NCBI GenBank assembly: GCA_019137195.1
Contig: JAGVSR010000111.1
Span: 1 to 64,000, forward strand
Direction: 5' to 3'
Source of the DNA: Alphaproteobacteria bacterium
GTDB lineage: Bacteria > Pseudomonadota > Alphaproteobacteria > Rhizobiales > Hyphomicrobiaceae
DNA: 64,000 nucleotides
In this document: positions 21,721 to 29,009 of the stretch, piece after piece
How the letters are laid out: each line of letters begins with the position of its first letter
How positions within the stretch are numbered: position 1 is the first letter of the stretch
The notes under the pieces: generated by a model
Told to the model about the DNA's origin: nothing
The model's database searches: none
What the model saw: the letters and a program-made list of their open reading frames with translations, nothing else
Program-made: the position numbers and the translations under genes

Positions 21721-22593
21721 TCAGGCGATCCTGACTGTGATGACGGTCGTGTTGTCCTGGTGCGGATCGCGAACGGCCTCCACGCCGCGGACGAGTGCGT
21801 TGGCGACCGCCCCCGGACCGTCTGCGGCATAGGCGGCGACGATGCGCTGGATCTCGACCGCGTCGAGCGTTTGTAGCCCGTCGCTGGCGAGGATCACGTA
21901 GTCGCCGCGCGCGAGACGGAGCGGCTTGCCCGAGATGTCGACGAGGTCGATCTCGTCGCCGGTCACGGCCGACCGCAGCATGTGCCGGCGCGGGTCACGG
22001 CGCGCCTCGTCCTCGGTCATGAAGCCTTCGGCGGCCAGCCGGTCGAGCTCGGGCGCCAGCGAATGGTCTTCGTTCAAAACGGCGATCTCGCCGTCGCGGT
22101 AAAGAAAAAGCGGGCTGTCGCCGACGCTGACCCACTCTGCGCCGTCGGGGCCGAACATCACTCCGACCAGCGTCGAGCCCATGCCGGAGAGGACCGGGTT
22201 CTCGTCGACGATGGCCGCGATCTTGGCGTTCGCAGCCTCCAGTCCGGCCATGAGACGCTCGCGGTTCGGACCCGCGCAGCCGGTCGCGCGCTCGAGGAAG
22301 GCCTCGCACGCCTTGCGGCTGGCAATGGCGCCGCCCGCGTGCCCGCCCATGCCGTCGGCCAGCACGGCCACGACCTCGGAGCCGTTCGCGACGGCCGGCA
22401 GGGCGTCGACGCGGAACGGACCGGGCCCCGGCCAGATCACGGCTGTGTCCTCCTGGTAGCTGCGCGACCCTTTGATGCTGCGGGTCGCAAACTCGAATGC
22501 GGGCATCGATCGTTCCTGCCGTCGCCGCGCCCCGGTCGGCCCCGTGGGCCCGGTCGGTACGCTCACCTCGTCCGGGGGCGCTATATCGCTCAT
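21721..22593 (-). CDS. PP2C-family Ser/Thr protein phosphatase
   Basis: Metal-dependent phosphatase expected to reverse Ser/Thr phosphorylation. The 290-aa protein has the PP2C metal-binding motifs SRSYQEDTAV, VLADGMGGHAGGAIAS, GSTLVGVMF, WVSVGDSPLFLYRDG, VILASDGLQTL and a C-terminal QDNTTVITV, with all key aspartates present. No membrane segment is visible. The first 29 residues (PTGPTGPTGARR) are low-complexity, and an alternative start MPAFEFATRS lies at residue 30. It is the last gene of a - strand set with two FHA genes, divergent from a kinase, so it probably dephosphorylates that kinase or its targets. Confidence 0.92.
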   Translation of the reverse strand: MSDIAPPDEVSVPTGPTGPTGARRRQERSMPAFEFATRSIKGSRSYQEDTAVIWPGPGPFRVDALPAVANGSEVVAVLADGMGGHAGGAIASRKACEAFLERATGCAGPNRERLMAGLEAANAKIAAIVDENPVLSGMGSTLVGVMFGPDGAEWVSVGDSPLFLYRDGEIAVLNEDHSLAPELDRLAAEGFMTEDEARRDPRRHMLRSAVTGDEIDLVDISGKPLRLARGDYVILASDGLQTLDAVEIQRIVAAYAADGPGAVANALVRGVEAVRDPHQDNTTVITVRIA

Positions 22594-22688
22594 GTCCGAT
22601 CACTCATACGCCACATTGCGCGGGGCCGACAGACCGTCCACGGATGCTCGTCCGCGGACGCCTGTCTGGTTGCGGTCCTCGTTGCCAT

Positions 22689-23468
22689 TCAATCGCGATC
22701 GCCCGAGATCGCCGACCAGTCGAACTCCGCGCTGCAGAACGGCACGAAGGCGAGCTGCGTATGCCCCATGGTGATGACGTCCATGGGCTGCAGCTCAACC
22801 GCGCCCGTCGGCCGCTTGTCGTTGACCGAGACCACGTTGGTCTTGGCGAGGTTGGGGACGAACAGGAAGCTCCGCTCCGCCGAGTCGTAGCGGATATAGG
22901 CCTGCTCCTCGGTCGAGATGCTTTCGTCGCCGAACGCGAGCGGCACGCGGTTGGCGGGCCCGCGCCCGATGGTGTTGTTGCCCTCGAAGATTGGGCGGAA
23001 CTGACCGATGCCGGGTCCGCCGACGACGACCAGCCAGCCGGCCACGGGATCGGCCTCGAACGCGCCTCGCTTCACCTGCACTTTGCCGCGCACGAGCTGC
23101 GTGCGCGGCGCCGCCTCGGGAGCCTTCGCCGAGGGTCCTCTCATAACGCGCGTGGTCGGGGGTGCATCGGGTTCGGTCGGACGGCTTGCCAGTGAGGCCG
23201 CGGGACCGCGCGCCTCACGGGCAGCTTCCGCTGCCGATGGCACGCCGTCGCGTCGGGCGTTGGCATCGGGCTCGCCAGCGGCAGCGTCGGCATCGGCGGG
23301 CTTGGCAGCCTGAGGCAGAGGTGGCGGCGAAGATGGGCTCTGCGGCTGCGCGGCTGCTGCCTTGGGCGGGTTGAGGGTGTCGTCGCGGCTCGCGGCCGCG
23401 AGCGCATCCTTGAGCGAGCCGAGAAAGCTCGCGCGCGGGGCTTGTGGGGAAGCCGACCCTGCTGACAT
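22689..23468 (-). CDS. FHA-domain protein, soluble, diverged binding loop
   Basis: A 259-aa protein with a Pro/Ala-rich N-terminal half (about residues 1-145) and a C-terminal forkhead-associated domain (about 150-255). FHA features: FEGNNTIGRGPANRVPLAF and a late beta sandwich ending VITMGHTQLAFVPF. The residues after the usual GR motif read ESISTEEQAYI. The histidine normally found in the SxxH motif is absent, so classic phosphothreonine binding is uncertain. It lies between the PP2C and second FHA genes on the same strand, which suggests an adaptor in the same phosphosignalling system. Confidence 0.85.
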   Translation of the reverse strand: MSAGSASPQAPRASFLGSLKDALAAASRDDTLNPPKAAAAQPQSPSSPPPLPQAAKPADADAAAGEPDANARRDGVPSAAEAAREARGPAASLASRPTEPDAPPTTRVMRGPSAKAPEAAPRTQLVRGKVQVKRGAFEADPVAGWLVVVGGPGIGQFRPIFEGNNTIGRGPANRVPLAFGDESISTEEQAYIRYDSAERSFLFVPNLAKTNVVSVNDKRPTGAVELQPMDVITMGHTQLAFVPFCSAEFDWSAISGDRD

Positions 23469-23565
23469 GACCTGTTGCTCCTTTGCCTAGATCGCCTGTC
23501 TCTGTATCTGTCTCTGTCCGGTTTCGATCGCCGCCCGGCCTGGGCCGGTTGCCGGTCTCTCGACC

Positions 23566-24294
23566 TCAGTTCGTGTACGTAAGCCTCTGCTCGCCGAGCT
23601 CGATGACGTCGCCCGCCTGGAGCGCCCGGCTGGTGACCCGGGATCCGTTGACGAGCACGCCGTTGCCTTGCGATCCCGACAGGTCGGTCACGACCGTGTG
23701 CGAGCCGTCGGGCCGATGTATGGCGGCGTGGTAGCGATGCACTGTTCGGTCATCGAGCACGATGTCGTTGTCGGGCTCGCGTCCGACGCGAACGAGCTCG
23801 CGTGTGAGAACGAGCCGCCGCGCTCCTCCGCTGGCGTCGCTCCACTCGAGCGCTCCGCCATGAGACCGTGCTGCCGTTCTCCCGAGGGTCGTCGTGCCAA
23901 AGCCCGCGGCGGTACCCTTGCGTCGCATCAGCACCGTCCGCGCGTCGCCCTCGGACGAGCCGAGCCGGGTGATGAGCCAGCCGACGACGGCCACAACGGG
24001 GACCGCCCCGAGTGCGCCGAGACCGAGCACCAGGGCAGGCGCCCGCTCGTAGGCGCTCCGCGTCGCGTCGACGACGGCCTGAGCGAGGTCTGCGGCCGAT
24101 GCGGCCGTGGTGAGTGCCGAGAGCGTGGCCAGCTGCATGAATGTTCCACCTGCCGCCGGCACGTCGCGCACCCCCGCCGCCAACGCCAGGGCCGCCAGCG
24201 ACGGCATCGCCGAATTTGGCCAGATTGCATCCATGATGCCCATCGCGATGCTCGTCGAGCGCGAATCTCCTGGGCGAGAGTCGGCGCGCCTCAA
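23566..24294 (-). CDS. Membrane-anchored FHA-domain protein
   Basis: A 242-aa protein with an N-terminal hydrophobic/Ala-rich part (LAALALAAG and LATLSALTTAASAA, possibly a signal peptide), a clear membrane segment (APALVLGLGALGAVPVVAVV, about residues 90-112) and a C-terminal FHA domain (about 163-240) with LVRVGREPDNDIVLDD, VHRYHAAIH and GNGVLVNG. The conserved Arg, His and Asn of the phosphopeptide site are present. The start is uncertain; several ATGs (residues 1, 18, 21) are usable. It is the first gene of the - strand trio, 192 bp from the divergent kinase. Confidence 0.87.
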   Translation of the reverse strand: MRRADSRPGDSRSTSIAMGIMDAIWPNSAMPSLAALALAAGVRDVPAAGGTFMQLATLSALTTAASAADLAQAVVDATRSAYERAPALVLGLGALGAVPVVAVVGWLITRLGSSEGDARTVLMRRKGTAAGFGTTTLGRTAARSHGGALEWSDASGGARRLVLTRELVRVGREPDNDIVLDDRTVHRYHAAIHRPDGSHTVVTDLSGSQGNGVLVNGSRVTSRALQAGDVIELGEQRLTYTN

Positions 24295-24486
24295 GGCAGC
24301 AACATGGCCGGAAAGCGCCGAAGCGGAGATTTGTTCATCGTGGGTTCATCGGCCTCTATCCGCCACATTCGAGGATCAAAGGAGGGCGAAGCGGAGGTGA
24401 TTTGCAGACCTCGGGCCGGCGGAAAAGTGCCAGCGTCGAACGCCGATGCCGGAGCTTTTGCAGGGCGCGGGGGATGAGCGGGTGAG

Positions 24487-26868
24487 ATGGCGAACCTGAT
24501 TGCGCTGGACGGCGGCACTGTGCTCGCCGACGACTACAGGATCGAGCGCGTCCTCGGCGCGGGCGGCTTTGGCGTGACCTATCTCGCCCAGGAAATCGCC
24601 TTGAACCGCTACGTCACCATCAAGGAGTATTTTCCCGCCGACTTTGCCGCCCGTGCCGACGGCCGCAACGCCGAGCCGCGCTCGGAGCACTGCGTCTCCG
24701 ACTACAAGTGGGGGCTCGAGCGCTTCATCGAGGAGGCGCAGACGCTCGCACGATTCAATCATCCCAATATCGTCCGCGTCTACCGCTACTTCCGCGCCAA
24801 CAACACCGGCTACATGGTGCTGCATTTCGAGGAGGGCCAGAGCCTCAAGGCATGGCTCAAGGGCCTCGGCCGCGCTCCGCGCCAGAAGGAGCTCGATGCC
24901 ATCGTCGCGCCGCTGCTCGACGCGCTCGAGGTCATCCACAAGGCCGATTTCCTGCACCGTGACATCGCGCCTGACAACATCATCATCCGGAAGGACGGCT
25001 CACCCGTCCTGATCGACTTCGGCTCCGCCCGCGGAGAGATCGCCGCCCACTCGAAGACCGTCTCCGCGCTCGTCAAGCCCGGCTACAGCCCCTACGAGCA
25101 GTACGCCGAGACGAGCCGTCAGCAGGGTCCATGGACCGACGTCTATGCGTTGGGCGCTACCCTCTATCATGCCGTTGCCGGCAAGCGCCCTCCCGACAGC
25201 CCGTCGCGCATGGTGAAGGACGAGATCGTGCCGGCCCGCGAGGCCGCCCTCGCCGCCTATCGCGCCGGATTTCTGAAGGCCATCGACAAGGCGCTGGTCC
25301 TCGGCATCGATGCGCGGCCGCAGTCGGTGGCACAATGGCGCGCCGAGCTTCTCGCCCCCGATCCTCCGAAGCAGAGCTGGCTTTCACGGACCTCAGGCCG
25401 CAAGGCCGCGCATGCCGCCGAGCCGCTCGAGCAAGTGGCGGCTGCCGTGGCCGTTGCTGCCGCCGAGCCGGCTCCTCCGCCGGCCGCCACCCCGAAAGCA
25501 GCCGGGCCCAACGCCTCGCCGCAGCCGGATGCGCCGGGCCCCCGGGGCGGCCTCCTCGATTTCATGGAAGGCCTGCGGCGCAAGTCGGCTGCCGCCGAGG
25601 CAGGGCCGGCTAGCCCGGCCCCGGCAGGTCAGCCCGCGAAAGCCAAGGACACGAAGGCCGTCCCGCAAGCGAAGGAGCCGAAGGCCGCTGCGTCCGAGGC
25701 CCGGAGGAAGTCCGCGGACAAGGATGTGGGCAAGGAGCTCGTCCCCGTCGCCTCGCCGTCGAGGTCCAAGGCCCCCCGTCCGAACCCGGTCAGCTCGAAA
25801 TCGCCGAAGAGCTGGCGGCCGCTGATGTGGAAGCTCCTGATCGGTGTCGGTGTGGCGAGCGCGGCCGTCGCGATGCAGGACCGCTTCCCTCACATGGGTG
25901 CCAAGACGCCGGTGGCGGCCGCTGTCGGAACCAAGCGCAGCTCGGCCGCTGCGCCGCAGCCGGAAGCTTTGCCGGTCGCCGAGGTCAAGGCGCACGATGG
26001 CGGCGTCACTAGCCTCGCCTATGGCGGCGACGGTCGCGTCCTCGTCACGGTCGGCAAGGATGGCCGCCTCAAGGTTTGGGACGCCTCGAGCGCCGCGCTG
26101 AAACGCACGATTGAGCTCGGCGACGGACCGGCGACGTCGCTCGCCGTCTTCGGCACGCGCGCCGTGACCGGTCACGCCAACGGCAACACGGTTCTGTGGG
26201 ACGTCGACAAGGGCGACCGGATCGGCGCGTACAAGAGGAACGACGCCGAGATCTGGGCCGTCACCTTCCTCGGCCGCCAGGATCGCTTCGCCACCGCCAG
26301 CCACGACTGGAAGGTGACGTTGTGGGACGAGGCCTCCTCGTCGCCGGCCCACGTCATCGACGGTCACCAGAACGCTGTCCAGGCGGCGGCCTTCGCCATG
26401 TCGCCGAAAGGGCCGCTCCTCGCCACCGCCGGAGCCGACAGGACGGCCCGCATCTGGAACGTCGACAACCTCGAGCAGACACGCCGCTACACCGGCCACA
26501 GCGACTTCGTCACGACGCTCGCCTTCGCGCCCGATGCCCGTGCTGTCGCCTCGGCCGGGCTCGACGGCGGCATCCGCCTCTGGTCCGCGACCTCGCGTTC
26601 CACCCTGCGCCGTCTCTACGGCCACAAAGGGCGTGTCGGCGGACTGGCCTTTGCGCCCAAGGGAGACGTCCTCGTCTCGGCCGGCGAGGACGGCAAGGTG
26701 CGGGTATGGGACCTGAAGCGCGGGCGGGCCGCACGCGTGCTGCCGGGCACCTTCGTGCCCCAGCAAGCCATCGCCGTGTCGCCCGACGGCAGCCGCATCG
26801 CCGCCGCCGGCGACGATGGCATCCTGCGCATTTGGGCGAACCCGCTCGACCGCTCGCTGACCAACTGA
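24487..26868 (+). CDS. Ser/Thr protein kinase with WD40 propeller
   Basis: A 793-aa membrane-bound Hanks-type kinase. The kinase domain spans residues 15-290: P-loop VLGAGGFGVTYLA, ATP lysine K46 in TIKEYFP, catalytic loop HRDIAPDN at 157-164, DFG at 177-179. The usual catalytic-loop lysine is replaced by alanine. A long Ala/Pro/Lys-rich linker (about 290-440) leads to one membrane segment (about 446-465). A C-terminal seven-blade WD40 propeller follows (about 499-790), with blades ending in VWD, LWD, LWD, IWN, LWS, VWD and IWA. The propeller would lie on the opposite side of the membrane from the kinase, as an external sensor. It is divergent from the FHA/FHA/PP2C genes. Confidence 0.93.
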   Translation: MANLIALDGGTVLADDYRIERVLGAGGFGVTYLAQEIALNRYVTIKEYFPADFAARADGRNAEPRSEHCVSDYKWGLERFIEEAQTLARFNHPNIVRVYRYFRANNTGYMVLHFEEGQSLKAWLKGLGRAPRQKELDAIVAPLLDALEVIHKADFLHRDIAPDNIIIRKDGSPVLIDFGSARGEIAAHSKTVSALVKPGYSPYEQYAETSRQQGPWTDVYALGATLYHAVAGKRPPDSPSRMVKDEIVPAREAALAAYRAGFLKAIDKALVLGIDARPQSVAQWRAELLAPDPPKQSWLSRTSGRKAAHAAEPLEQVAAAVAVAAAEPAPPPAATPKAAGPNASPQPDAPGPRGGLLDFMEGLRRKSAAAEAGPASPAPAGQPAKAKDTKAVPQAKEPKAAASEARRKSADKDVGKELVPVASPSRSKAPRPNPVSSKSPKSWRPLMWKLLIGVGVASAAVAMQDRFPHMGAKTPVAAAVGTKRSSAAAPQPEALPVAEVKAHDGGVTSLAYGGDGRVLVTVGKDGRLKVWDASSAALKRTIELGDGPATSLAVFGTRAVTGHANGNTVLWDVDKGDRIGAYKRNDAEIWAVTFLGRQDRFATASHDWKVTLWDEASSSPAHVIDGHQNAVQAAAFAMSPKGPLLATAGADRTARIWNVDNLEQTRRYTGHSDFVTTLAFAPDARAVASAGLDGGIRLWSATSRSTLRRLYGHKGRVGGLAFAPKGDVLVSAGEDGKVRVWDLKRGRAARVLPGTFVPQQAIAVSPDGSRIAAAGDDGILRIWANPLDRSLTN

Positions 26869-27251: not shown

Positions 27252-29009
27252 GTGAACATTCTCGGCCTCGTCACCAAGAGCCACGATACCGGCATCGCGC
27301 TTCTCAAGGACGGCATCCCCGAATTCGTGCTCGAGGAGGAGCGCTTCAGCCGTCAGAAGCACTCGATGGAGTTCCCGGAAATGGCGCTCGACGCCATGTT
27401 CGGGAAGGATGGCGCCTACGACTTTCGCGAGGTCGACGCCGTCACCACGCCCTGGGATATGAAGCGGCTCCGCCCCACGTACCTGAAGTGCGTATTCGGC
27501 GAGATGCCGGCGAGCTTGAACCTGCTCTGGCCCTCGGCTCACAAGACCCAGGCCACCGCCATCTTCAATCTGCCGATGCGCCTTTGGCTCGGGCTCGGCA
27601 AACGCTACGGCTTTCATCGTGTGCCCAAGATCGTCCAGGTTGGCCACCACGACAGCCACGCCGCGATCTTTTTCGTCTCCCCATTCGAGGAGGCGACCGT
27701 TCTCGTCATGGACGGCTACGGCGACGAGACCGCGACCTCGGCCTACTACGGGCGCGGCAACCATCTCGAGCGCACCTGGGCAGACGGCTTCTTCGACAGC
27801 CTCGGCATGCTCTACAGCCTCGTCACCGAGCACATCGGCTTCAAGGTGTTCGAGGAAGGCACCGTGATGGCGCTAGCCGCCTGCGGCAAGCCGAGCTACG
27901 CGGCCCAGTTCGCGGACGTCATCAAGCTTCTGCCCGGCGGTCGCTTCGCCATCAACCGCGACTATACGAGCTACCAGACTCACGGCTTCAACCGCCCGTT
28001 CAAGCGCAAATTCTACGAGATCTTCGGTCCCGCGCGTAAGCCCGGCGAGCCCCTGACCGACCGCCACCGCGACATCGCCTATGCGCTGCAGCACACGGTC
28101 GAGGAGGCGATCCTCCACGTCGTGCGCGAGCTCTATAACCAGCACAAGAGCAAGAACCTCGTCATCTCGGGCGGCGTAGCGTTGAACTGTGTCGCCAACG
28201 CCCGCATTCTACGCGACACCAGGTTCGAACGCGTCTGGGTGCCGCCCTGCGCCTCGGACACCGGCGCCCCCATCGGCAGCACCCTGTTCCATTATCACGC
28301 CACCCTCGGCAAGCCGCGCGAGTTCGTGCTCAATCACGCCTTCTACGGCAAGGAGTACAGCGAGGCCGAGATGGTGGCGGCCCTGGAGGCGGCAGGCCTC
28401 ACCTTCGAGCGTTTCGAGGAGGCCGAGCTCTTGAACAAGGTCGCGCTCGACCTCGCCGAGCAGAAGATCGTCGGCTGGTTCCAAGGTCGCGCCGAGATGG
28501 GTCCGCGCGCGCTCGGCAACCGCTCGATCCTGTCCGATGCGCGCTCGAACGCCATGAAGGATCTGATCAACGCCCGCATCAAGCACCGCGAGGCGTTCCG
28601 TCCGTTCGCACCCGTCGTGCTCTATGATCGCATGCAGGAGTTCTTCGAGTTCTCGCAGCCCGACCCGTTCATGACCATGGCGCCGAGGATCCGGCCCGAC
28701 AAGGTCCACCTCATCCCGGCTGCCGCGCACGTCGATGGCACCGGGCGCATCCAGACGATCGAGCGCGAGCAGAACCGGCGCTACTACGGCGTCATCGAGG
28801 CCTACGCGAAGCTCACCGGCATTCCCGTGATCCTGAACACGAGCTTCAACCGTCAGGAACCGGTCGTGAACGCACCGGAGCACGCGATCTCGTGCTATCT
28901 GCGGACCGACATGGACGTGCTGGTCCTCGGCAACCTCTACACCCGCGACCGCAATCCGGACGCCATCCGCCGCGCCACAGAAGCCTTCGCCAACCGCGCG
29001 AAGAAATAG
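27252..29009 (+). CDS. Carbamoyltransferase (NodU/CmcH family)
   Basis: Transfers a carbamoyl group from carbamoyl phosphate to a hydroxyl of a sugar or natural product. The 585-aa protein begins MNILGLVTKSHDTGIALL and has the Kae1-like N-terminal domain with the metal-binding VGHHDSHAAIFF, VLVMDGYGDET and SGGVALNCVANARI. The C-terminal YrdC-like part has GWFQGRAEMGPRALGNRSIL and ILNTSFNRQEPVV. It starts at a GTG with GAGAGG upstream. No nodulation, antibiotic or glycosylation genes are next to it, so the substrate is unknown; a cell-surface glycan or lipid is one possibility. Confidence 0.92.
   Translation: MNILGLVTKSHDTGIALLKDGIPEFVLEEERFSRQKHSMEFPEMALDAMFGKDGAYDFREVDAVTTPWDMKRLRPTYLKCVFGEMPASLNLLWPSAHKTQATAIFNLPMRLWLGLGKRYGFHRVPKIVQVGHHDSHAAIFFVSPFEEATVLVMDGYGDETATSAYYGRGNHLERTWADGFFDSLGMLYSLVTEHIGFKVFEEGTVMALAACGKPSYAAQFADVIKLLPGGRFAINRDYTSYQTHGFNRPFKRKFYEIFGPARKPGEPLTDRHRDIAYALQHTVEEAILHVVRELYNQHKSKNLVISGGVALNCVANARILRDTRFERVWVPPCASDTGAPIGSTLFHYHATLGKPREFVLNHAFYGKEYSEAEMVAALEAAGLTFERFEEAELLNKVALDLAEQKIVGWFQGRAEMGPRALGNRSILSDARSNAMKDLINARIKHREAFRPFAPVVLYDRMQEFFEFSQPDPFMTMAPRIRPDKVHLIPAAAHVDGTGRIQTIEREQNRRYYGVIEAYAKLTGIPVILNTSFNRQEPVVNAPEHAISCYLRTDMDVLVLGNLYTRDRNPDAIRRATEAFANRAKK

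Follow-up and report, generated by a model that had tools for sequence, protein, structure and literature searches.

A Conserved Kinase-WD40/FHA/PP2C Gene Set in Hyphomicrobiaceae Set Apart from Type VI Secretion, with Predicted Phosphothreonine Motifs in the Tail of FHA1

Eukaryote-like Ser/Thr signalling in Gram-negative bacteria is best known from the control of type VI secretion systems (T6SS). In Actinobacteria, the phosphorylated tail of OdhI/GarA, small soluble FHA proteins belonging to the PknG/PknB-PstP system, was reportedly found by Nott et al. in 2009 to be recognised by the protein's own FHA domain. Phosphorylation of OdhI/GarA takes place at the conserved ETTS motif (ETTSVFR), which lies in the N-terminal region (PMC8546545), and GarA has been described as unique to Actinobacteria (PMC12321487). 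The FHA domain of Bdellovibrio DgcB recognises the protein's own phosphorylated N-terminal tail (PMC6733907). In PkwA-type proteins of Thermomonospora, cyanobacteria and Planctomycetes, a single chain comprises both a kinase and a seven-bladed WD40 propeller. The T6SS threonine phosphorylation pathway (PpkA-Fha-PppA/TssL) co-encodes a PpkA-like membrane kinase domain, an FHA partner and a PP2C eraser, and the kinase/FHA/PP2C logic of the Agrobacterium T6SS is the same as that of the gene set analysed in this study (PMC3953482).

This set is located in the window, i.e., the whole analysed stretch of 64,000 nucleotides. All four open reading frames, encoding PP2C, FHA1, FHA2 and the kinase-TM-WD40 protein, were found to be intact; their coordinates and strands matched those given in the sequence-only reading, and Pfam domains were detected in each of the four proteins. 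The features are as follows:

21721..22593, minus strand: PP2C phosphatase with intact metal-site motifs, PstP-type proteins being its nearest solved relatives
22689..23468, minus strand: FHA1, 259 aa, soluble, comprising an N-terminal helix, a disordered linker, an FHA domain at the C-terminus and the CGxxFDW tail
22740..23045, minus strand: FHA domain of FHA1, residues 142-243, best Foldseek matches OdhI/GarA
23100..23102, minus strand: T123 codon of FHA1 in RTQLVRG, second predicted phosphothreonine, nearly invariant
23151..23153, minus strand: T106 codon of FHA1 in PPTTRVMR, first predicted phosphothreonine
23566..24294, minus strand: FHA2, FHA protein anchored by a TM segment, with an uncertain start at TTG 24294, ATG 24243 or ATG 24138
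23593..23793, minus strand: FHA domain of FHA2, HRYH replacing SxxH, closest solved sequences GarA/OdhI
23968..24033, minus strand: TM segment of FHA2 predicted from sequence, followed by ARTVLMRR with T120
24295..24486, no strand: divergent intergenic region, 192 bp, extending to as much as 348 bp with the FHA2 start at 24138
24487..26868, plus strand: Ser/Thr kinase, 793 aa, PpkA-like in its catalytic domain, with a single TM helix and a WD40 propeller at the C-terminus
24487..25356, plus strand: kinase domain, cytoplasmic, residues 1-290, from profile and identity comparison
25816..25878, plus strand: predicted TM helix, residues 444-464, from the AlphaFold single helix and the positive-inside rule
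25978..26838, plus strand: WD40 propeller of seven blades, residues 498-784, a predicted sensor in the periplasm

The kinase gene is divergent from the minus-strand genes, which follow each other in the order FHA2-FHA1-PP2C with intergenic gaps of 97 and 95 bp. A shared promoter region of 192 bp had been proposed between them; the divergent gap itself was verified, whereas its length depends on the TTG start of FHA2 at 24294. Since the ATG at 24138, with GGTGGA upstream, fits the N-termini of the orthologues better, the gap may in fact comprise 348 bp. A promoter scan, which is weak evidence, detected no credible sigma-70-like site in the gap. Directly 3' of the kinase gene, a carbamoyltransferase gene of the NodU/CmcH type was identified (27252-29009), a homologue of which also occurs near the set in locus L140.

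Pfam analysis placed Pkinase (1.9e-30) and WD40 (3e-49) within one chain, in which the kinase domain is followed by a low-complexity linker, the TM helix and the propeller. The AlphaFold model of the latter features 28 strands, corresponding to seven blades, with a pLDDT of about 95, and the WD40 domain of PkwA was among its best structure matches. In contrast to the PkwA-type proteins, the kinase domain is PpkA-like and is encoded in a family-wide conserved four-gene locus together with FHA and PP2C genes. Because basic residues precede the TM helix, the positive-inside rule suggests that the kinase faces inward and the propeller outward; the protein is thus probably a membrane kinase with a periplasmic propeller, in agreement with the external-facing WD40 domain assumed previously. 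Among the family orthologues, mean identity to the window protein amounted to 80% for the kinase domain, 49% for the propeller and 34% for the linker, with K46, HRD and DFG invariant or nearly so. As judged from these alignments, the kinase is a fixed catalytic core with a predicted sensor that changes faster. The PknB/PASTA kinase model NF033483 yielded 122.9 bits against a cut-off of 450 bits, the match being confined to residues 10-292, and no conserved T-x-[VIL]-[VILMF]-[RK] site was detected in the kinase itself. Within the otherwise divergent cytoplasmic linker, the stretch DAPGPxGGxLDF (residues about 348-361; 25528-25569) is conserved and may represent a docking site. A role as a defence kinase was rejected: the PADLOC matches PD-T4-6 and MAD6 are generic kinase-domain matches, FHA1, FHA2 and PP2C gave none, and the set is a family-wide core locus. 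Likewise, a phage origin was dismissed, the PHROGs matches being generic kinases only.

FHA1 begins with a conserved N-terminal helix (FLGSLKDALAAASRDDT). Comparison of its sequence with the PDB gave no match at E 0.01, whereas structure comparison of its FHA domain by Foldseek returned OdhI (4qcj) and GarA as best matches (listed as 4qcj/7rj3), and the tail was left unplaced by AlphaFold, with low confidence or disorder. FHA1 shares with OdhI/GarA the closest fold, the small soluble format and a flexible tail before the FHA domain bearing a TTxVxR Thr motif, a predicted phosphosite in FHA1, and the PP2C of the set is of PstP type. It differs from them by an extra N-terminus of 100 residues, the CGxxFDW tail, an altered phosphothreonine pocket, a second site (RTQLVRG) and its occurrence in Proteobacteria. 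The OdhI model NF041660 matched FHA2 with 55 bits against a cut-off of 200 bits and gave no match for FHA1. The GGDEF output domain that DgcB carries in the same chain as its FHA domain is missing from FHA1. Almost all FHA1 relatives in the class retain the CGxxFDW sequence after the FHA domain (22689-22740), which is a possible partner-binding tail.

The two conserved Thr motifs of FHA1, TTRVxR and RTQLVRG, are located 20-35 residues N-terminal to the FHA domain. Among 70 distinct FHA1 linkers, TTR[VILA] within the PPTTRVxR motif was present in 53 and an RTxLVRG-like motif in 64. The pattern T-x-[VIL]-[VILMF]-[RK] occurred 1.65 times per linker compared to 0.027 in shuffled linkers, a count that is inflated by shared ancestry. 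As the motifs are conserved inside a linker that elsewhere diverges freely, they are regarded as signal, and T106 and T123 are predicted as candidate phosphosites. Most relatives outside the family retained one such Thr (KTRLLGF, KTKVFGG). These conserved OdhI/GarA-like Thr motifs before the FHA domain are new here. FHA1 and OdhI/GarA have T-T-x-V-x-R in common and place it at a similar distance from the FHA domain, which suggests that they follow a common logic; the resemblance of TTxVxR between FHA1 and GarA is short and could also reflect convergence or chance.

Pfam recognised the FHA domain in both FHA proteins (8.1e-5 and 1.3e-15), and GarA/OdhI were nearest to that of FHA2 by sequence. 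A Thr just after the TM segment of FHA2 (RTVLMRR, DATRxYRP) resembles the FHA1 motif. Both proteins depart from the canonical pocket GR/SxxH/NG: FHA1 carries GR..SxEEQ..N without the G, and FHA2 carries GR..HRYH..NG, in which the canonical Ser is replaced by His (40 of the 54 scorable sequences have HRYH). The Arg and Asn pocket positions are retained in both, making phosphothreonine binding plausible. For the phosphatase, a PP2C_2 match (1.6e-12) was obtained, and its metal-site motifs were invariant or nearly so among the orthologues. The sequence-only reading had described the locus as a writer-reader-eraser set. Writer and eraser stood up, with their catalytic residues kept, while the reader has to be qualified as putative, as both FHA domains depart from SxxH.

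The prevalence of the genes was evaluated in 103 genomes of the family, in which the kinase was detected in 102, FHA1 in 97, PP2C in 98 and FHA2 in 85; more reliance can be placed on FHA1 and PP2C, because the kinase counts at that threshold take in paralogous kinases. Relatives retrieved by name largely represented Hyphomicrobium, Filomicrobium and other Hyphomicrobiaceae. A total of 53 named loci exceeded 11 kb; all of them contained FHA1, which was the query, and PP2C, the kinase was present in 49, FHA2 in 38 and rpsT/dnaA in 6. The kinase was divergent from FHA1 in all 66 named loci holding both. The proposal that the four genes belong together was therefore upheld by the survey of co-occurrence in relatives, a comparison that the sequence-only reading had itself named as a possible refutation. 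Since the flanks vary between genera, the set behaves as one unit, whether it moves or stays in place. In genera g5, g7, g21 and g24, the FHA2-FHA1-PP2C part lies apart from the kinase, a statement limited by draft contigs. FHA2 gave no match in genera g12, g14, g22 and g25, save one trace match, and judging from these profiles it is dispensable, as it is absent from some genera while FHA1 and PP2C persist.

Outside the family, FHA1 was detected in about 20 of roughly 280 remaining genomes sampled from the order, and a sample covering the phylum added 14 genomes from a single other family of the class and one genome from another. FHA1 and PP2C were adjacent in 20 of the 20 outside loci sampled, mostly with a kinase in the fetched stretch; the more distant kinases are shorter or differ in their sensor regions (L286 gave a weak PDZ match). 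Dynamin-family GTPase genes occur near the kinase-FHA1-PP2C trio in another alphaproteobacterial family (L284:3140-5341, L286:11281-14621). An SNase-like protein with hydrophobic segments is encoded beside the kinase in 18 of the 53 named loci (e.g., L140:4015-5613, L122:4500-6000), sometimes accompanied by a TPR protein, and not beside the kinase in the window. Some relatives (L151, L152, L153, L154, L158 and L159) carry a second, paralogous kinase/FHA/FHA/PP2C set, featuring a kinase with no apparent WD40 domain and an FHA2-like protein of about 480-530 aa with a long N-terminal region; this second set is absent from the window's own genome. In that genome (4.04 Mb, 175 contigs, estimated 100% complete), PF00069 and PP2C_2 each gave a single match, and a single FHA, namely FHA2, exceeded the cut-off. 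Beyond the set itself, the profile scan thus detected neither a Hanks kinase nor a PP2C_2 phosphatase nor an FHA protein; since FHA1 was missed, the sensitivity of the scan to divergent FHA domains is limited. An earlier description of the four-gene set was not found in the open-licence literature.

The likeness to kinase/FHA/phosphatase trios of T6SS, which had been pointed out before, is supported by descent, because the closest solved relative of the kinase domain is T6SS PpkA (5hnv, E 1.8e-61), followed by PknA (1.5e-23). Together with the logic shared with Agrobacterium, this would suit a relic or a stand-alone regulator of the PpkA-Fha-PppA pathway. Such an origin is nevertheless highly improbable: the type VI sheath gene tssC was detected in 1 of the 103 family genomes and not in the window's own, in accordance with the absence of secretion genes noted earlier; among the carriers outside the family, 5 of 29 have tssC, never near the trio; the TagH/Fha-type model TIGR03354 scored 31.9 bits for FHA2 against a cut-off of 120.25 bits, with no match for FHA1; and PP2C is closer to PstP than to PppA. 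T6SS regulation was thus largely refuted by the tssC survey, and despite its PpkA-like kinase domain the set is not the known pathway, from which it differs by the WD40 sensor, an FHA1 that is not TagH and a predicted phospho-target in FHA1's own tail instead of TssL. On sequence grounds, it is a PpkA-like kinase/FHA/PP2C trio with a WD40 sensor kept across the family independently of T6SS. Control of replication or division proteins encoded beside the set was also considered, as dnaA, dnaN and rpsT adjoin it in the window and, in genus g7 (L142, L144, L156), the kinase alone lies beside dnaN-recF, with the FHA/PP2C genes elsewhere. This target is very unlikely, and the neighbourhood, previously taken as a hint, looks incidental, because dnaA/rpsT flank the set in only 6 of the 53 long named loci; in most genera it occurs without them. 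A scan for DnaA boxes and skew near dnaA gave no signal.

What the comparisons establish is that the four genes are kept together, with a divergent kinase, intact catalytic residues and conserved Thr motifs in the FHA1 tail. We lean, with some reserve, towards a vertically kept, T6SS-independent Ser/Thr phosphorylation module with a proposed FHA1-tail switch. The predicted periplasmic propeller would bind an envelope ligand or partner and thereby set the activity of the cytoplasmic PpkA-like kinase, which would phosphorylate T123 and/or T106 of FHA1 as well as T120 of FHA2. The phosphorylated FHA1 tail might then engage an FHA domain, either FHA1's own, as in OdhI/GarA, or that of FHA2 at the membrane, toggling FHA1 between a state that binds a partner in the cytosol and one that is closed or docked at the membrane, and PP2C would reset the switch by dephosphorylating the tail. 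FHA2, lost in some genera, may serve as a membrane dock tuning the switch. Hyphomicrobium and Filomicrobium, which largely make up the named carriers, are prosthecate budding bacteria. This fact, the membrane anchor of FHA2, the predicted periplasmic position of the sensor and the adjacent SNase-like gene with its hydrophobic segments would also fit FHA proteins that are plain scaffolds, FHA2 joining the kinase and mainly envelope or polar-growth substrates at the membrane and the FHA1 tail forming no switch. We regard such scaffolding as rather unlikely, given that FHA2 is lost in several genera where FHA1 and PP2C remain, and that the tail motif of FHA1 is the more strongly conserved feature.

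Under the tail-switch reading, it is conceivable, albeit tentative, that FHA1 is an OdhI/GarA-like switch of Alphaproteobacteria at the centre of a stand-alone kinase/PP2C module, the sole Hanks-type circuit of the cell, coupling an envelope signal to a core process, for instance polar growth or central metabolism. The set is compact, and the predicted sites T106 and T123 render the switch hypothesis directly testable. Here, a circuit that is complete, apparently sole and free of T6SS occurs almost throughout one alphaproteobacterial family. Where a genome encodes a single kinase, a single phosphatase and two FHA proteins, every Hanks-dependent phosphosite is expected to lead back to the same switch, so that the logic from kinase to output can be worked out cleanly.
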